This document shows positions 16,722 to 26,345 of a stretch of 33,158 nucleotides of DNA, piece by piece. The translations under genes were made by a program, and so were the position numbers. The number at the start of each line of letters is the position of its first letter. Position 1 is the first letter of the stretch. Location of the stretch: the NCBI GenBank assembly GCA_029259795.1, contig JAJDEM010000092.1, positions 1 through 33,158 on the forward strand, given 5' to 3'. The DNA is from Planctomycetota bacterium. Lineage in GTDB: Bacteria > Planctomycetota > PLA2 > JAEUHO01. A model generated the notes under the pieces. The model saw only the letters and a program-made list of their open reading frames with translations. It had not been told where the DNA came from and did no database searches.

Positions 16722-19373
16722 GTGACACGCAGTCTTGAATCCCTCTTTGAACGCTACCGCAGGCGGGGCGAGGTCTCCGCCCTGGCGAAGATCTTCGATC
16801 GCACGGCTCCCGAGCTGCTCAGGATCGCGATGCATCTCGTGCGCGATCCGGCCGTGGCGGAGGATCTCCTTCAGGAGACCTTCGTCGCCGCGATGGAGAG
16901 CGCCGAGCGCTTCGACGCAAGCCAGCGGCTCGTGCCGTGGCTTGCGGGCATCCTGAGCAATCAGGCGCGCCGGCATCATCGCTCCACGGCCAGGCAGCCG
17001 GATCCCACGCGGTTGCACGCGCGGGGCGAAGCCTCAGGCGTCGGTGAGCTGGAAGCAAACGTCGCGCAGGGCATCGATGCCCTGCCGGCGCGCTACCGGC
17101 AGATCGTTCTGCTCAAGCTCGGCTACGGCATGGAGCCCGCCGCGATCGCACACCTGCTTGATGTGCCGCCGGCGACCGTGAGGACACGGCTGCATCGAGG
17201 GCTCGAGCAGCTGCGCGGGCGGTTGCCGGCCGGCTTGGTGCTTGGCGCGCTGCCGCCGGCCGCGGCGCTCCGCGGGCTCGAGGGAATCCGGGAGGCCGTG
17301 GTGAGCCACGCCTCCGCGAGCGCTGTCACGACCACCGTCGTAGCTACGGCGGCCCTGTGGACCTTGGGAGGTGTCGTCGTGACGAAAGCCAACATAGCGG
17401 GCGCGCTCATTCTCTTGGGGCTGGTCCTCGTGGGCGGTGTGTTCACGCTTGGCGACTGGAGCGCCGGGTCGAGCGACACGGGCGAGACGCCTGGCCTGCA
17501 TGAAGCCGACGCAGACGAGGGCCCGGCGCTGCAGGTGCGGGAAGGCGCTGGCAAGGAGCAACCACCGGAGGAAGCCACCGAGCCGGAAGACGCGGAGCCC
17601 ACGGACCGCCATGTCTGGCGAGCGTCGGGTCACGTGGTAGCGGACGAGAAGCGTGTGCCCGGGGCCTACATCGAGGCGTGGATCGAGCGCGGCTCGGTCA
17701 TCATGTCGCTGCCTGCCGGAGCGGCCGATGCCGCTGGGCGCTACACCCTCGATCTCAAAGTGATCAAGGCGTGGTCAGACCTCGAGCGCGCCTCGGCAAC
17801 CTTGATGGTGCGTGCACGGGCGCCGGGCTACCGGCCTGGTCAACCGACGCGGTTCCCGTTGGTCGAGCACGCAGACATCCACGCGCCCGAGGGCGATCTG
17901 GAGCTCGAGCCTGGATTCTCGATCGAGGGCCGGGTGGTTGACGCCCGGGGAGAGCCGGTGGCGCGGGCCGGGGTCTCACTCCACCGCGTGCCGCACGACG
18001 GTGCGGACTGGTACGCCTACACAGACACCGACGGGCACTACGCCGTCGGCACCGAGGACGCGGGCACCTACGCCGTGGCCGTGCGGTCGAGCCAGGGCAC
18101 GGGACGCTCCGAGGCACGCGCCATCGCCCTACGAGAGAGCGTCACCCTTCCCGACGTGGTCCTCTCGGAAGGCCTCTTCATCCGGGGACGTGTGGTCTCG
18201 GCCGACGGCACCCCCCTGCCCGGGGTCGACCTCTTTGCGAATGCGCTCCCCACCGCCGACGGTACGCAGCCGCCCCGGGAGGCCGGCAACCATCAGCTGC
18301 GCGCGCGCACCGACGCCGACGGCGGGTTCCGCTTGTTCAGCCTCTGGGACGGACGCTTCCGCATTCATGTGAGCGGACTGCAGGCGACAACCGACGCCGC
18401 CATGGGTGAGCACGAGGTCCTGATCCGCATCCTCGCCCCTGTCATGGTGACCCGCGTTGTGGGCCCGGAGGGGCGCCCCCTGCCCGGCGCTGGCGTGTCG
18501 CTTCTGGGCTGGCGTGGCAAGCACGTCGACATCGTCGACCAGATCCTGGCCGGCACCGTGACGCTTGAGACGGCCCGCGCGGTCAGCTCGTCGTCGTCCT
18601 ACAGCACGTTGCTCTCGGCCGACGGCACGCTGACCGACTTCGTCACGCCGGGAAGCCGCTGGATCGTCTCTGCACGCGTCGTCGGCGCACCGCCCGCCGA
18701 GACCACCGTCCGCATCGATGGCAGCGAGTCTGTCACGCGCGTGAACCTCGTCATCCATCCGGCCATCCCCCACGGCCGGCTGGATCTACGGGTGCTCAAG
18801 CCGGATGGCTCGCAGCTGAAGGACTTCGAGGTGGAGATCAGCACGCCGCTCGGCATGGGCGTCGGCTCCTCACGCAGCAACGCGAACGGTGAGTTGCTGC
18901 CGGTCGAGTCGGGTTCGCTGCGCTTGCGCGTGCTTCCGTTTGCCAGCACAAACTACATGGCACGCCGCTTCGGACTCGGCACCTTCCTGCTCCCCGGAAC
19001 CGCAGCCGTCGAGGTACCGCCGAACGGGCGTGGCTCAGCGACGGTGAAGCTCCGTGAGGGCGGACGCTTCCGCCTGCGCCTCACCTACCCCGAGGGCGAG
19101 CAGCCCAAGACCGAGAGCCTCCGGATCCGCCTCTTCGAGCGAGGCCACGCCGATGCCCCCTTCCAATACGGCGGCAGATGGGTCTACGACGAGCCCAAGG
19201 GACTGCACGTAACGAGCGTCTTCCACCCGGCGGAGGCTTGCCTCAACGCGAAGCTCTTGGCGCCGGATGACTACCGGCTCGAGGTGCGCACGCAGAAGCA
19301 CGGCACGCATGACCGCACGATTCGCATCCGCGCGGGCGAGGTCATCGACGTCGTGATGGATCTGCGGAAGTAG
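16722..19373 (+). CDS. ECF-type sigma-70 factor fused to a TM helix and extracytoplasmic carboxypeptidase-regulatory-like repeats
   Basis: GTG start with GGAGG upstream. Sigma region 2 'LFERYRRRGEVSALAKIFDRTAPELLRIAMHLVRDPAVAEDLLQETFVAAM' and region 4 'LPARYRQIVLLKLGYGMEPAAIAHLLDVPPATVRTRLHRGLEQLR', then TM 'IAGALILLGLVLVGGVFTL', then repeats such as 'GRVVDARGEPVARAGVSLHRV...DTDGHYAVGTEDAGTYAVAV'. Confidence 0.88.
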   Translation: MTRSLESLFERYRRRGEVSALAKIFDRTAPELLRIAMHLVRDPAVAEDLLQETFVAAMESAERFDASQRLVPWLAGILSNQARRHHRSTARQPDPTRLHARGEASGVGELEANVAQGIDALPARYRQIVLLKLGYGMEPAAIAHLLDVPPATVRTRLHRGLEQLRGRLPAGLVLGALPPAAALRGLEGIREAVVSHASASAVTTTVVATAALWTLGGVVVTKANIAGALILLGLVLVGGVFTLGDWSAGSSDTGETPGLHEADADEGPALQVREGAGKEQPPEEATEPEDAEPTDRHVWRASGHVVADEKRVPGAYIEAWIERGSVIMSLPAGAADAAGRYTLDLKVIKAWSDLERASATLMVRARAPGYRPGQPTRFPLVEHADIHAPEGDLELEPGFSIEGRVVDARGEPVARAGVSLHRVPHDGADWYAYTDTDGHYAVGTEDAGTYAVAVRSSQGTGRSEARAIALRESVTLPDVVLSEGLFIRGRVVSADGTPLPGVDLFANALPTADGTQPPREAGNHQLRARTDADGGFRLFSLWDGRFRIHVSGLQATTDAAMGEHEVLIRILAPVMVTRVVGPEGRPLPGAGVSLLGWRGKHVDIVDQILAGTVTLETARAVSSSSSYSTLLSADGTLTDFVTPGSRWIVSARVVGAPPAETTVRIDGSESVTRVNLVIHPAIPHGRLDLRVLKPDGSQLKDFEVEISTPLGMGVGSSRSNANGELLPVESGSLRLRVLPFASTNYMARRFGLGTFLLPGTAAVEVPPNGRGSATVKLREGGRFRLRLTYPEGEQPKTESLRIRLFERGHADAPFQYGGRWVYDEPKGLHVTSVFHPAEACLNAKLLAPDDYRLEVRTQKHGTHDRTIRIRAGEVIDVVMDLRK

Positions 19374-19486
19374 CGGCTGCTGCGGTGAGGGGTGATGGTG
19401 AAGCTGGTCCACGCCCAAAAATCCGGGCCTGCGCTTGCACCACGGCGTCCCTTTGCGCCATGATCGACGCACTGGGAGGGTTCACT

Positions 19487-21229
19487 ATGAATAGAGCCAT
19501 CTGGATTCTTTTTGTCTTGTTGATCGGCACGGCGACGGCCGTCGCCAAGTCAGGCGCCACGTATGGCATCAAGGGCGACGCGCCGTGCGCGGACGTCGAC
19601 CCTGCCGTCGATGGCGCGTCGAGCTTCCCCGGGGAGTGGAGCGACGCACTCGCGATGCCCGATGGGTTCACGGACCCGTTCACCGGCGCGTCGCCCGCCG
19701 GCTACTTCTACTACCAGAAGCGCATCGACTGGATGGCTACGAGCGCCGCCGGAAACAGCGACACCTACACGGGCTCGACGGCCTTCATCGCCCACGACAT
19801 CTACGGAGGTGCACTGGGCGCGTTCGCCTTCTTCCGCATCAACAACCCGTTCGACTGGAACTACGTCAAGGTCGAGCGCCAGGACGGCTCCATAACCGAG
19901 TGTTGGAACTTCGGCGGCTTTGTTGCAACGCCCACGCCGCCGCACGGTGGCGGGAACGACCTGAACGAGATGGATGATGGGCTGTGGATTACCGCCGCCG
20001 GGCCGCTGGCCACCTCCGTACTGATTCCCGAAGGACCGGGCGCGGACCTGATCGTCGACGTCGGCTTCATCGTGCGCAAGGACGAGGATCCGTCCACAGA
20101 CAGGCACTGGCTGCCGGGCATGGACGAACCCGGCGATCCGGGCTGGGACTGGGACATGTGGTACGGCTGCTTTGCGCGGGCCGGCTTCAACGCGTCCTTC
20201 TCGATCAATGCGGACGATGCTTCACCGGACGCCGCACTCCACACGGACCCGAACGAAGTCTACGAGTGGTGCTTCCACGAGTGGGCCGAAGGCGGGCCGC
20301 CGCTCAACTGCACACAGTGGTGCTTCGAGTGGATTGACCCGCCCAAGCGCCTCGTCGTGTACACCGCCGCCAACTGGTTTATTCACTGGGGTCCGCCGCC
20401 CGTGCCGTCCACGCCGACGCCTGTTCTCGTGCTGCTTGGCAGCCTGCTCGCGCTCGGGGGCTACAGCATCTTCCGTCGGCGGCGGCGCACGACCGTGCTC
20501 GTGACAGCGCTGGCGCTGCTCGCGCTCGCCATTCCCGCGGCCGGCTGCGGGGGCAGTGGTGGCGGCCCGCACAAGAACCCGCCCCCCTTCCGCATGACGA
20601 CCGTTGTGCCGCCCAATGGCTACGACGGGCATCCGTATCCTGTGCCCGGAGGGCTTCCCGCCGTCAACATCGGCGGGATCCAGGGCGGCACACCGCCCTT
20701 CTCGTTCCAACTGATCGGCGGGGCGCTCCCCCCCAACGTGATCCTCTCGCCCATCGGACAGATCCACTCGAACCCGCCTGGCACGCCCATTCCCGCTGGG
20801 AGCGCAGGCAACTACGACTTCCTCATGCGCATCACCGACGCCGCCGGGGACTCGATCCAGTCGGAGAGTTCGCTGCGCATCGAGGAGCAGGTAACGCCGT
20901 TCCCCCCCGGACCGCCCATCCCGATCGAGCTGGTGCAGCTCGATCTCGTAAGCGTCTCGCCGATCGACCTGCTGATGGCGCCGATCAATACGGATATGGC
21001 AGGTGTCATCAAGGTGCGCGGCGGGGACCCGAACTTCCCGTACACCTTCCAGGAGTTTCCGCCAGGGCAGCTTGCCGCGCCCCCCTTCAACGGCAACTTC
21101 ACCCTGAGTCCCGGCGGCGTCCTACGGGGCCAGAGCCCGGTGCCGTTTGGTCCGCAGAACTTGTTCATCGATGTGACCAACGTCGGGCCGCCGACGCCGA
21201 TCGTCATCCGGGTCCAAACCACGCCGTGA
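19487..21229 (+). CDS. Exported protein with mid-protein CTERM-like sorting signal followed by lipobox and Ig-like (He_PIG-type) region
   Basis: ORF trimmed to ATG 19487 with GGGAGG upstream; signal peptide MNRAIWILFVLLIGTATAVA. Internal 'VPSTPTPVLVLLGSLLALGGYSIFRRRRRTTVLVTALALLALAIPAAGCGGSGGG', then 'GGTPPFSFQLIGGALPPNVILSPIGQI...AGNYDFLMRITDAAGDS'. Confidence 0.75.
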   Translation: MNRAIWILFVLLIGTATAVAKSGATYGIKGDAPCADVDPAVDGASSFPGEWSDALAMPDGFTDPFTGASPAGYFYYQKRIDWMATSAAGNSDTYTGSTAFIAHDIYGGALGAFAFFRINNPFDWNYVKVERQDGSITECWNFGGFVATPTPPHGGGNDLNEMDDGLWITAAGPLATSVLIPEGPGADLIVDVGFIVRKDEDPSTDRHWLPGMDEPGDPGWDWDMWYGCFARAGFNASFSINADDASPDAALHTDPNEVYEWCFHEWAEGGPPLNCTQWCFEWIDPPKRLVVYTAANWFIHWGPPPVPSTPTPVLVLLGSLLALGGYSIFRRRRRTTVLVTALALLALAIPAAGCGGSGGGPHKNPPPFRMTTVVPPNGYDGHPYPVPGGLPAVNIGGIQGGTPPFSFQLIGGALPPNVILSPIGQIHSNPPGTPIPAGSAGNYDFLMRITDAAGDSIQSESSLRIEEQVTPFPPGPPIPIELVQLDLVSVSPIDLLMAPINTDMAGVIKVRGGDPNFPYTFQEFPPGQLAAPPFNGNFTLSPGGVLRGQSPVPFGPQNLFIDVTNVGPPTPIVIRVQTTP

Positions 21230-21747
21230 GCCCGGAACAGCGGGCGCCCCCCCCGGGACGCCGACTCGCCCTGCGCTTCGGGCTCGCACTGCCGCTCCTG
21301 GGCGGCGGCCTCATCGCGCTGTTTGCCTACGCCCCAGCGCTACAGTCCGTGCGCGAAGGGATCGTGCATGGGACCGCCGCGACCGCAGGCGGCCTGCTTC
21401 CGCTCTCGGGTTGGGACGTCGAACGCAGGGGACACACACTCCACGCTCCGGGTGACCGAGCTGTCGAGGTTGTGAAGGACTGCGATGGGCTGCCCGTGAT
21501 GCTTCTCTTTTTCGCGGCCGTACTCGTCACCCCGACCGCCTGGCGACGCAAGATCGTGTTTGCCGGCATCGGGCTTGGGCTGCTCTTTCTTGTCAACCAG
21601 GTGCGCCTCGGGCATCTGCTCTACTTGAGCAGTGGATCTCCCGGGAGCTTCCGAGCCGCGCATGAGACCTGGTGGCCTGCCGGGCTGCTGCTCTCCGCAG
21701 GCGGCCTCTATCTCCTCTGGGCTGCACGCCAGGTGCCCCGCGCATGA
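21226..21747 (+). CDS. xrtH: Exosortase family protein (XrtH-like)
   Basis: GTG start overlaps the previous stop (GTGA). Multi-TM protein with ordered exosortase residues: Cys in 'VVKDCDGLPVMLLFFAAVL', Arg in 'LFLVNQVRLGHLLYL', His in 'SFRAAHETWWPAGLLL'. The subfamily call (H) is tentative. Confidence 0.75.
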   Translation: MSPEQRAPPPGRRLALRFGLALPLLGGGLIALFAYAPALQSVREGIVHGTAATAGGLLPLSGWDVERRGHTLHAPGDRAVEVVKDCDGLPVMLLFFAAVLVTPTAWRRKIVFAGIGLGLLFLVNQVRLGHLLYLSSGSPGSFRAAHETWWPAGLLLSAGGLYLLWAARQVPRA

Positions 21748-22223
21748 GGCGCGCACTCCCCTGGATCTTGCCGCTGGTCGTGGCCGCGCTGGTCGCTCTC
21801 GCCCAACACGCCACCTACCCGGCGTTCCTGGCGCATGCCACCGAGATCACACGCGACCTTGTCCCGATGGACACGCCGCCAAGCATCGTTCAGGTGAGCG
21901 GCGACCGGCTGCGTGTGCTTGGCGCCGCCCAGCCCAGTTTCGTTCACGTACCCGCCATCGGCTGGAACCTGCCCGTGCTCGTGTGTCTCTGGGGGTGGAT
22001 CGTGGGCGGGCGCCGCCTCGCGCTGCTCGCTGCTGCCCTGCTCCTGGTGATCGCGCACGTCGTCGTTGCCGATCTCGCCATCCGGCGTGGGCTCGGCGAG
22101 CTCGTCGGTTGGCCCCATGCCATCTACCGCGCGTGGTACATCTGGATTGCGCCGCTCCTACCCATAGTGTGCGTAGCCCTCGGCAGATTCGCCGGCACGA
22201 CCCCGCAGGAGCAGGCTCCGTGA
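21744..22223 (+). CDS. Multi-TM membrane protein, possibly exosortase-H-associated membrane protein
   Basis: ATG overlaps the exosortase stop (ATGA). MRRALPWILPLVVAALVALAQHATYPAFLAHATEITRDLVPMDTPPSIV..., four predicted hydrophobic helices. Identity inferred mainly from context. Confidence 0.6.
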   Translation: MRRALPWILPLVVAALVALAQHATYPAFLAHATEITRDLVPMDTPPSIVQVSGDRLRVLGAAQPSFVHVPAIGWNLPVLVCLWGWIVGGRRLALLAAALLLVIAHVVVADLAIRRGLGELVGWPHAIYRAWYIWIAPLLPIVCVALGRFAGTTPQEQAP

Positions 22224-22723
22224 CGCGCTTTCGAACCATCTTCCTGCTCGCACTGGTGCCCCTGCTCACCGGATGTGGGGATGATCGCGAGCCGCGCCGC
22301 GACCCCACGGTGGCCGGAATCTATGTCCTCGACAAGGAAGCCATGCGCGGGCCGTGGCTCGACGCCTACGACGCGCTTGTCGACCGGCGGCTCGCCGGCC
22401 TACCGACCGCGGCACGGCGCGCGAAGGACCGGTCGGCTGCCGCGGCGGCCAAGACGAAGTTCCGCGGCCAGTTCGAGGCGCTGAACGTCACCCTGGTCCT
22501 CGGGGCCGACGGATCCTGGACACTGAACGGTGCCGCACTCGAGGGACGCATCACTCGACGCGGGACCTGGACCCTCAAGGAACAACAGCTCACTCTGGTT
22601 GCCGAACCACCCTCCGGTACGCAGGCTGGTGGTTCCGTCACGCCTGCGGTGTTCCAGGACGGAGTCATCTCGATGCGGCCGGAGCCGCACCTTCCCGAGG
22701 CCATGATCTTCCGACGCCGGTAG
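22220..22723 (+). CDS. Small lipoprotein, function unknown
   Basis: GTG overlaps the preceding TGA (GTGA). MTRFRTIFLLALVPLLTGCGDDREPRRDPTVAGIYVLDKEAM... (lipobox LLTGC). Confidence 0.65.
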   Translation: MTRFRTIFLLALVPLLTGCGDDREPRRDPTVAGIYVLDKEAMRGPWLDAYDALVDRRLAGLPTAARRAKDRSAAAAAKTKFRGQFEALNVTLVLGADGSWTLNGAALEGRITRRGTWTLKEQQLTLVAEPPSGTQAGGSVTPAVFQDGVISMRPEPHLPEAMIFRRR

Positions 22724-22730
22724 AGGCGCA

Positions 22731-25700
22731 TTACCTCAGCACGATACCCTCCGCACCGGCTTCGGCCTCGACGGCGGTGAGCTCCTTGCCTTGCATGTCC
22801 ATCACGTGCAGGAGGTAGCGGCCCGGAGGCAGGCCGCGGAGGTGGAAGGCGCCGTCTTGCTTGGGGTAGGTCTGCTTGAAGAAGCCGTGGCTTACGGACT
22901 CGGCGCGGATGGTGATCAAGCGCGTGCTCCTCTTGCGCAGGGCGGGGTCGATCGAGCCCTTGATGCTGCGGCCTTCGACGAACGTCAGCTCGAGCGGATC
23001 GCCGCTCGTCTTGACGTTCTCGACCAGCACGTAGCGGTCATCCTTGCGCCCGTAGAGGTAGAGGGTGACGGTGCCCGCCGCAGGCAGGCGGTTGAGCAGG
23101 AAGCTGCCGTCGCTCTCGACGGGGCCGCGCATGCCGTGGGGCTGCCCGGCGGTGGTCCAGGCCCACTGGAACCCTACGAGACCCTCGGCCGCGACGCTGC
23201 CCTTGCGGGTGCGGGAGGTCTGGAGCCGTAGCGTCAGTCCGAGCGTAGGCACCAGGACACCGTCGCGCGTGAGCGGATCCTCGGTCTTCGCTTTCGGAAA
23301 GGCCGTCACCGTCACGTTGGCGCCGGTCGGGAACGGTCCCACGCGGAACGCGCCTTGGCCGTCGGCCGTGGCCTGCACCCCCCCCGCCGTTTCACCCTTG
23401 GCGAACGCGGACAGCATGTGAGCTGCGGCCGGCGAGCCGTCGGGCCTGAGCAAGGTGCCCTCGATGAACCCACCCACCTTGAGATGCAAGACGAGATCTT
23501 CGCGACCGGGCCGGACGTCGCGTTCACGCGCAAGCATCAGGTCACTGCGTCCGATGTCGCGCTCCCAGGGCCTCGCGCGAACGGTGTAGATGGCGCCTTG
23601 GGTCAAACCAGCGAAGCGGAAGCGGCCATCCTTGCCAGAGCGGGCGTTGACCCACTTGGCAGTACTTCGGTCGCCGGGCATCGCGGACATCTCGACGTTC
23701 TCGATGCCCTTGCCGTCCGGGCCCAGCAGCTGGCCGGCGATGACCGCACCGCGCGTGTAGGAAAGGGTGAGGTCGGTATCATCCGTGGTTGCCGACACTT
23801 CGCGCGGGCCGAGGTACTCCGCCGACAACACAAGCTTGAGGCGATGCCCGCCCGGGGTCAGCCCCTCGAGGCGGAACGCGCCACTCGCGTCGGAGTTCGT
23901 CCGATGGCCCTCGACTTGACCGCGGCGGCCGCGCCGGGTGTCGATCCAGACCCGCACGTCAGGGATGCCCTTGCCGTCGTCGTCGACCACGCGACCCGCG
24001 ATGACGCCGCCGGCTCCGAGTTGGAGTGTGAACGGACCCTTGTCGGCCGACTTGCCGGTGAGGCTGAACGGCGCGTGCATGATCCGGCGCCCCTCGCGGT
24101 CGCGGGCGTCGTTCACCTCGAAGGAAAGCGACGAGCCGCCGACCTGGGCTTCGAAGGCTCCACGCAGGATGGCGCCTGAGGCGCCCCGCCCGCCCTCGAC
24201 CTTCACGCGCACGATGCCCGAGTCGACCCGCGTGCCATCAGGCGCCAGTACCGTGCCCGTGATGGCAAGACGCTTGGCTGCAGGCGTCCGGCGCGGCCAC
24301 GGGCTGTCGCCGGACGCCGGGATGACGGCGTTGATCACGATCGCCGCCGGCTCGTTCGGGGGCTCAAGCGGCACCTTCGCGCTGCTGCCCACCGTCCGCC
24401 AGCGCCGGTCCACCCGCGCCATGGCGTTGACCTGGTACGTCGCGGGCGCGAGCGCGTCGAACTCGAAGGCTCCGTGCTCGTCGGTCATGCCGATGGCGAC
24501 GGTCCCCGCGCCTTCCGCATCGAGCCGAACGGTCAGTCGCGGGAGCGGTTGTCCCCGGGCATCGACGACGCGGCCCCGCAGCGTGCCCGGCCCCTTGAGG
24601 CGCAGGGTGAGGGCGACGGGCTTGTCGAAGTCCGAGACGACGACGGCCTCGCTGCACGACGCTTCGGTGTGGGCGAGGATCACCCAGTGGGCCTCTGCCG
24701 GCCCAAGCCCCGGATGCTCGAAGCGTCCCTCCGCGTCGGTTACCGCAACGGGCTCCAGGTCACCCGGGCTGGGAATCGTCACCGGCTCGGGCTGCCAGCT
24801 GCGTCCGCCGCGGCGGGGCTTCTGATGGCGCCAGCGCACCTGGGCCCCCACCGCCGGACTGCCATCGGGCGCAAGCACGACACCACGCAGAGGCATGCCC
24901 CGCTGGATCGTGAAGTCACGCTCGCTCTCGGAGCCCGCGGCCTCGACGCGCAGCTGGTAGTGCTCGTTCGGCCCACCGACGCGATGCCAGCCGGAGCTGA
25001 AGCTGCCGCCGCCCGCGCGGATCGTGGGGCCCTCCGGGTCGTAGTAGCCCCGGGCCCTCACGTAGAGTTCGTAGTCGCCGGGGGTGAGGCCCAGCAGGGT
25101 GTAGCTGCCGTCTGCATCGGTCAGCGCGTGCAAGCGATTGTGCGCAGAGCCACCATAGGCACCGACCCGCGCACCGACGACGACGGCGCCCTCGTTGTCG
25201 AGCACGCGACCGCGAAGAACCGAGCCCCGATACAGCGTGAGCTCGAGGTGAGTTGCCTCGCCAGCGCGCACGCTGCGTCCGAGGCTTCGCCAGCTGCGAG
25301 GCAGCCAACCGGCACCGCGCGCGCTGAGACGCACGAGCGCGCCCGGAGGAACCCCCGTCACCTCGAACGCCCCGCTTGTGTCGGTCGTCGCTTGGAACAC
25401 GTAGTTCGCACGCCCCGCTGTCTCGGTGCGCACGTCAAGCAGGACCGTCGCGCCATCGATCGCCACGCCATCCCCGTCGGCCAAGCGGCCGGTGACCCGC
25501 CCTGCGTTGGCTCCGCCGAGCCGAATCACGACCTCGCCGGTCTCGGGGACCTCAACCTCCAACCCGCGCAGCGCCAGGCGGCCGGCAACGTGCACGTCAA
25601 AGCGCAGCAATCCTGTCGGTGCGCTGGGAATAGAGAAGCGGCCGCCTTCGTCGGTTGCGAGCGGACCGAAGCCCCACGCGGTCTGCGACATGGGCCGGAC

Positions 25701-26345
25701 ATCGTCACCGGCAGCATACGCACGCACGATGGCGGCCACGGGACGGTCGGCCGCGTCGACCACGCGGCAAGCAAGGGCTACGCCCTCGAGCACCCGCAGG
25801 ACGATCGCGTGGCTGCGAAGACGTCCCCAGTTCGCGAGGAGCGCGCGCGTCGAGCGCCGGGGTGCCTCGACGACGGCCTCCACCTCGTAGTGCGGCTGGT
25901 TTGGGGCAACGAAGCTGCCGGATCCCGTTTCGATGCCGTCCAAGGCGAAGCGACCACGGGCGTCGGTTACGCCGCGCGCGACGACTCGCTTGTTGGTTGA
26001 CGGCGGCAGGATGCGATCGAACGGATCGTTCGCACCGAAGCGCTGGCTTCGCGAGGCCACCACCGCAACGCCAACGACCGGCGCGTCTGCCGCATCGAGT
26101 ACCACACCGAAGACGCGTCCGCTACCCCGGACCGGCGCCGGCTCGACCACCTTGGGCGGGGCTTCGCCGCGGGTCTCGAGCTGCGGGCCACCCTCATCGG
26201 GAGCCTTGCTCGATTCGTCGCCTGGCTCTCGGACGGGCTGCTCCCCGTGGTCCCCCGCGAGCCACCACCCGACGGCGCAGATCACGGCGACCAGCGCCAG
26301 GGCACCCAAGGCTCGTCCACCGCTCCCACGACTTCGCATGCGCAC
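22731..26345 (-). CDS. Large membrane-anchored protein of many carboxypeptidase-regulatory-like repeats
   Basis: 1204 aa. N-terminal TM 'GALALVAVICAVGWWLAG', then many 'GRVVDxxGxP(L/I)xxxxVxxx...xxGxFxxxGLxPGxYxLxV' repeats. Confidence 0.85.
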   Translation of the reverse strand: MRMRSRGSGGRALGALALVAVICAVGWWLAGDHGEQPVREPGDESSKAPDEGGPQLETRGEAPPKVVEPAPVRGSGRVFGVVLDAADAPVVGVAVVASRSQRFGANDPFDRILPPSTNKRVVARGVTDARGRFALDGIETGSGSFVAPNQPHYEVEAVVEAPRRSTRALLANWGRLRSHAIVLRVLEGVALACRVVDAADRPVAAIVRAYAAGDDVRPMSQTAWGFGPLATDEGGRFSIPSAPTGLLRFDVHVAGRLALRGLEVEVPETGEVVIRLGGANAGRVTGRLADGDGVAIDGATVLLDVRTETAGRANYVFQATTDTSGAFEVTGVPPGALVRLSARGAGWLPRSWRSLGRSVRAGEATHLELTLYRGSVLRGRVLDNEGAVVVGARVGAYGGSAHNRLHALTDADGSYTLLGLTPGDYELYVRARGYYDPEGPTIRAGGGSFSSGWHRVGGPNEHYQLRVEAAGSESERDFTIQRGMPLRGVVLAPDGSPAVGAQVRWRHQKPRRGGRSWQPEPVTIPSPGDLEPVAVTDAEGRFEHPGLGPAEAHWVILAHTEASCSEAVVVSDFDKPVALTLRLKGPGTLRGRVVDARGQPLPRLTVRLDAEGAGTVAIGMTDEHGAFEFDALAPATYQVNAMARVDRRWRTVGSSAKVPLEPPNEPAAIVINAVIPASGDSPWPRRTPAAKRLAITGTVLAPDGTRVDSGIVRVKVEGGRGASGAILRGAFEAQVGGSSLSFEVNDARDREGRRIMHAPFSLTGKSADKGPFTLQLGAGGVIAGRVVDDDGKGIPDVRVWIDTRRGRRGQVEGHRTNSDASGAFRLEGLTPGGHRLKLVLSAEYLGPREVSATTDDTDLTLSYTRGAVIAGQLLGPDGKGIENVEMSAMPGDRSTAKWVNARSGKDGRFRFAGLTQGAIYTVRARPWERDIGRSDLMLARERDVRPGREDLVLHLKVGGFIEGTLLRPDGSPAAAHMLSAFAKGETAGGVQATADGQGAFRVGPFPTGANVTVTAFPKAKTEDPLTRDGVLVPTLGLTLRLQTSRTRKGSVAAEGLVGFQWAWTTAGQPHGMRGPVESDGSFLLNRLPAAGTVTLYLYGRKDDRYVLVENVKTSGDPLELTFVEGRSIKGSIDPALRKRSTRLITIRAESVSHGFFKQTYPKQDGAFHLRGLPPGRYLLHVMDMQGKELTAVEAEAGAEGIVLR

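Follow-up and report, generated by a model that had tools for sequence, protein, structure and literature searches.

The window, a 33,158-nucleotide stretch of DNA from a Planctomycetota bacterium (genome G000 below; G011, G002 and similar codes denote the planctomycete genomes compared with it), carries four successive genes at 19487–22723 joined by overlaps of GTGA, ATGA and GTGA. They encode a composite protein, an exosortase, a membrane protein and a lipoprotein, and presumably form one operon. The features discussed are as follows.

19487–21229, + strand: composite open reading frame of 580 amino acids, with signal peptide, N-domain, a junction of TM1, Arg cluster, TM2 and lipobox, and an Ig-like C-terminal part (translation; Shine–Dalgarno sequence; G011 homologue)
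19487–19549, + strand: predicted N-terminal Sec signal peptide, residues ~1–21 (hydrophobic segment 4–20; sequence MNRAIWILFVLLIGTATAVAK)
19550–20374, + strand: predicted extracytoplasmic N-domain, residues 22–296 (tail-less homologues in G116 and G160)
20402–20488, + strand: CTERM-like segment of VPSTPTP, TM1 and RRRRR, residues 306–334 (read in translation; anchor-model scores)
20474–20548, + strand: putative internal type II signal sequence, with RRRRR n-region, short h-region and AAG-Cys354 (read by eye; NF058595 at 24.7 bits; family profile)
20549–21226, + strand: Gly-rich linker and C-terminal Ig-like region, residues 355–580 (He_PIG matches)
21226–21747, + strand: short exosortase, 173 amino acids, with Cys86, Arg126 and His146 (TIGR04178, PF09721; GTGA overlap with the composite frame)
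21744–22223, + strand: small multi-TM membrane protein, 159 amino acids (ATGA overlap with the exosortase gene)
22220–22723, + strand: predicted lipoprotein (LTGC), fourth gene (GTGA overlap with the preceding gene)

Just upstream of the composite gene, an 883-residue frame (16722–19373) runs from an ECF-type sigma factor (regions 2 and 4) into carboxypeptidase-regulatory-like domains. Facing the four genes on the opposite strand, a 1,204-residue frame (22731–26345) apparently holds many carboxypeptidase-regulatory-like repeats.

The initial annotation had described 19487–21229 as a single frame in which a motif, TM segment and Arg cluster are followed by a second TM segment and a lipobox, and translation confirmed this in one frame of 580 residues. 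Its ATG at 19487 is preceded by the Shine–Dalgarno sequence GGGAGGG (19474–19480). The junction reads PPVPSTPTP-VLVLLGSLLALGGYSIF-RRRRR-TTVLVTALALLALAIPAAG-C-GGSGGG, with VPSTPTP at residues 306–312 (20402–20422), TM1 at ~313–329, RRRRR at 330–334 (20474–20488), TM2 at ~337–349 and Cys354 at 20546–20548; the interval 20402–20548 thus extends exactly from the V of VPSTPTP through the Cys354 codon. GC at third codon positions stays uniformly high through the junction (0.77–0.93), as expected of one reading frame. A low-confidence AlphaFold model of the full protein (mean pLDDT 34.6, two sequences) placed helices at residues 2–20, 313–329 and 335–348. Pfam profile comparison assigned no family to the N-domain, which might, as a guess from a DG..EW..A motif, be a carbohydrate-binding-like sandwich.

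A search of 101 relatives found a full-length composite homologue in one genome, G011, from the same family but another genus; a scan of genome contigs likewise matched only the G011 contig, and a plasmid search found no homologue. The G011 protein is 553 residues long, lies in a single frame and has the junction TPVPALPWP-TM-RRRGR-TM-LLLVGC-GGGGGGGG. Overall identity to the window protein is 46–51%, falling from 57% over the N-domain to 47% across the junction and 41% over the C-terminal part, where He_PIG (PF05345, cut-off 24) scores 44.9 bits in the G011 protein against 14 in the window protein. Since the same layout stands in one frame in another genus, an indel in one assembly, which the initial annotation had raised, is ruled out as the cause of the fusion. 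It had also noted an in-frame GTG at 20495 lacking a clear Shine–Dalgarno sequence, and inspection bore this out, the codon being that of V337. That the locus is in practice two genes, the C-terminal half arising by initiation at this GTG or the fusion by a sequencing or assembly error, we regard as highly improbable: the G011 gene does have a GTG at the same position, but a start there would strip every basic residue from the n-region, no Shine–Dalgarno sequence precedes it, a third composite (below) has no start codon at that point, and the error reading is largely refuted by the independent G011 genome.

This third composite lies in the window's own genome, at G000:C147:2922–3152, with the junction VVPVLPPNP-TM-RLNAPRVAR-TM-AMGC-GGGGGGG and ~78 residues after the Cys. 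Contig C147 begins within the gene, so the protein is known without its start; what is present of its N-terminal part contains a VWA domain above the Pfam cut-off and a choice-of-anchor X match below the cut-off, so that, the junction apart, it and the window protein appear unrelated. Across 12 family genomes, a profile built from the three junctions matched at full length only at those sites, as it did among the best 15 candidates per genome in 395 Planctomycetota genomes, the phylum to which the survey was confined. Other family matches at E < 1e-4 began at profile column 31 or later, that is, in the lipoprotein half, and most of those inspected were ordinary N-terminal lipoproteins with C-GGGGG. 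A hydropathy and charge rule applied to 424 distinct coding-like frames (a non-random set) returned the three composites and two polytopic membrane proteins. The sample thus holds three composite proteins in two genomes. Since the arrangement recurs in two other proteins, it seems to be a genuine internal signal for cutting or anchoring and not a product of faulty sequencing.

Both halves also occur apart. N-domain homologues without the CTERM/lipobox tail were found in the distant planctomycetes G116 and G160 (E 1e-35 to 1e-42), and the C-terminal half matched free Ig-like lipoproteins in G037 and G211, and in G002 and G004 of the same genus, with the match starting at or near the beginning of their signal peptide. 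We therefore read the protein as two separately occurring modules whose joint is conserved. The initial annotation had suggested a fusion of two former genes and had asked whether relatives keep the halves split; the separate halves agree with a fusion, but the fused form has been conserved and is no accident; in G011 it remains one frame. As an aside, two copies of the N-domain stand in tandem in a protein of G116:C107, whose C-terminal region is unrelated.

The second part of the junction had been read as a lipobox preceded by a basic n-region, and this reading stands: RRRRRTT-VLVTALALLALAI-PAAGC shows by eye a basic n-region, an h-region and a lipobox Cys, and the second half alone scored 24.7 bits against the NCBIfam model NF058595. 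Its placement is not that of an N-terminal lipoprotein signal, the Cys being residue 354 of 580. The lipobox is AAGC in the window protein, LVGC in the G011 homologue and AMGC in the C147 protein, AAGC (with Ala at −3) being weaker than LVGC, and LspA is encoded in both carrier genomes. A separate locus, G000:C74, encodes a fused ResB–CcsA-like cytochrome c biogenesis protein with LSLGGC in mid-protein, either a composite look-alike or another internal lipobox.

Could the composite simply be an ordinary protein with two TM helices, in which motif and lipobox are coincidental? Gly/Ala/Leu-rich TM segments are often lipobox-like, as the internal GGC of the ResB–CcsA-like fusion illustrates. We nevertheless think this unlikely, as three proteins, of which one is otherwise unrelated to the other two, all combine VPxxP with a basic cluster, a GC lipobox and a Gly-rich linker, and the C-terminal half resembles free lipoproteins from their signal onwards.

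The description of the first part as CTERM-like was upheld by a fragment ending after the Arg cluster, which scored 18.7 bits against LPXTG_anchor (cut-off 15.9) and 16.6 against MYXO-CTERM (cut-off 20); on these scores the TM1 fragment resembles a generic C-terminal sorting signal. NF058595, named ‘lipo-invert putative C-terminal anchoring domain’, covers more of the junction. The score rose from 24.7 bits for the second half alone to 35.8 when the TM1 half was included (31.1 for the whole protein; cut-off 37), and this rise indicates that NF058595 appears to model this element order already. Model positions 6–82 of 113 align over residues 291–364, with positions 83–113 unmatched. Scores for whole protein and fragment were 28.4 and 31.1 bits for G011 and 25.5 and 28.8 for C147, all below 37. 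Judging by the match, the model resembles the composite in placing a TM, a basic turn, a second TM and a lipobox in this order, which is found in the window protein; the difference is that the Cys there is followed by 226 residues with Ig-like domains. NF033207, ‘midcut-by-XrtH protein’, aligned over residues 300–352 at 15.2–18.4 bits, under its cut-off of 45; its name implies a mid-chain cut by a short exosortase, as in the reading below, but the neighbouring exosortase in the window falls below the XrtH cut-off. Both models were compared by name and match, and a literature search found no paper on midcut-by-XrtH or lipo-invert. Judged by sequence, the window composite is a variant of a layout already curated in NCBIfam, scoring below the cut-off of both models. 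Elsewhere in the phylum, those NF058595 matches outside the composites that were inspected lacked the arrangement, most being lipoproteins with an N-terminal signal or spurious frames, and NF033207 matches in 297 planctomycete genomes were all below the cut-off, those inspected being ordinary IPTL-CTERM or unrelated TM proteins.

These models bear on the idea that nothing is released: the chain would stay whole, or the Cys be merely lipidated, and a hairpin of TM1, Arg cluster, TM2 and lipid would anchor the N-domain by its C-terminal side. The name of NF058595 suggests as much, and its match spans the whole junction (31.1 and 35.8 bits against 37); the C147 protein, with a large VWA/choice-of-anchor-X-like part and a short tail past the Cys, is of the expected shape. 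However, a plain hairpin would need neither a good lipobox nor a CTERM motif, and the adjacent sole exosortase would be left unexplained. We consider this idea rather doubtful. The tail of ~78 residues in C147 and the existing NCBIfam models nevertheless make such a composite anchor a rival to the polyprotein that the initial annotation had proposed.

The exosortase gene follows at once, and its membership of the exosortase/archaeosortase family is indicated by score (TIGR04178, 47 bits, cut-off 23; PF09721, 44.1 bits, cut-off 25.7) and by Cys86, Arg126 and His146, which are kept in the G011 enzyme. The GTGA stop/start overlap of four bases with the composite frame is also present in both genomes. 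In the tree, the window and G011 exosortases formed a clade (support 99/99, with a long G011 branch) that grouped with short XrtH-type enzymes at a weak join (83/66); the XrtH model (TIGR04177, cut-off 86) gave 50.8 bits for the window enzyme and 41.9 for that of G011, both under the cut-off, and the window enzyme also fell below the XrtX cut-off. Profile search detected exactly one exosortase in each carrier genome, directly downstream of the composite gene, in line with the link to the adjacent exosortase drawn by the initial annotation; with assemblies as fragmented as these (417 and about 610 contigs), others may have gone undetected, as may other substrates. Neither G000 nor G011 held an IPTL-CTERM (TIGR04174) protein over the cut-off, which leaves the composites as the best candidate substrates. 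All ten other sampled family genomes lacked both the small exosortase and the full composite, one of them (G006) having two long exosortases. By our own arithmetic, an exact test of co-occurrence (2/2 against 0/10) gives 1 in 66, with relatedness ignored. A small multi-TM protein with an overlapping start also follows the exosortase gene in G011, without significant similarity to the 159-residue membrane protein of the window, which had no NCBIfam match.

We put at about an even chance the explanation that 20402–20548 is an internal two-part processing signal, in which an exosortase-type sorting signal and a type II signal share the Arg cluster. We infer the topology, the lipidation, the two cleavages and what then becomes of each product as follows. 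The N-terminal signal peptide would direct Sec export, TM1 would stop transfer and leave the Arg cluster cytoplasmic, and TM2 would re-enter the membrane oriented as a lipoprotein signal peptide; the charge pattern predicts the N-domain out, RRRRR in and the C-terminal part out, which would place Cys354 where Lgt and LspA act. Modification and cleavage before Cys354 by Lgt and LspA would then give a lipoprotein with Ig-like domains, and the exosortase of the next gene would cut near VPSTPTP and anchor the N-domain elsewhere in the envelope. Against a cut in two stands C147, where it is hard to see what a free lipopeptide with just ~78 residues beyond the Cys would do; a pure anchor, or re-joining to the lipidated Cys, would suit its short tail no less well. 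The AAGC lipobox, the count of three composites in two genomes and the XrtH and XrtX scores below cut-off also weigh against the two-part processing signal.

Re-joining would mean that, once LspA has cut, the exosortase works by transpeptidation: it would link the N-terminal half to the new amino group that the lipidated Cys now offers, and the TM1–Arg–TM2 hairpin would be lost. The process would be an enzyme-driven protein splicing that leaves a lipid in mid-chain. This would account for the head-to-tail signals and for the sufficiency of a short tail after the Cys, and exosortases are suspected of transpeptidation (PMC11980579). The scheme is conjectural throughout, however, and we rate it very unlikely. 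We know of no precedent for exosortase-driven excision and re-joining.

Known systems resemble the proposed two-part signal in part. PEP-CTERM and IPTL-CTERM systems share the order of motif, TM and Arg cluster together with a membrane Cys protease, and VPALP and VPSTP resemble I/V-P-T-L. They differ from the composite, whose signal lies mid-protein (IPTL-CTERM, TIGR04174, belongs at the extreme C-terminus), and in having many substrates, whereas the exosortase here has one or two candidates. An internal signal sequence is used in FbcH, the cytochrome b/c1 polyprotein of Bradyrhizobium, whose precursor is cut there into two proteins, but by type I signal peptidase, with neither exosortase nor lipidation. 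In MYXO-CTERM/myxosortase, a Cys proposed to be lipidated is combined with a TM/Arg sorting tail, in a topology inverted relative to lipoproteins; the combination is like that of the composite, but there is one TM at the extreme C-terminus, a CPBP-type protease, and a Cys before the TM (PMC11980579).

The locus suggests that one open reading frame may give rise to two surface proteins, or to a single one anchored mid-chain. One short exosortase with one or two candidate substrates, each bearing a sorting signal joined to a lipoprotein signal, would be a minimal system, suited to direct tests of the cut, of the acceptor and of how LspA may come into play. To our knowledge, the acceptor to which exosortases attach their substrates is open in most systems. 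A further exosortase gene, encoding XrtM, was seen near an RHS-repeat gene on a mobilizable plasmid of Methylomonas koyamae (NZ_CP023670.1).
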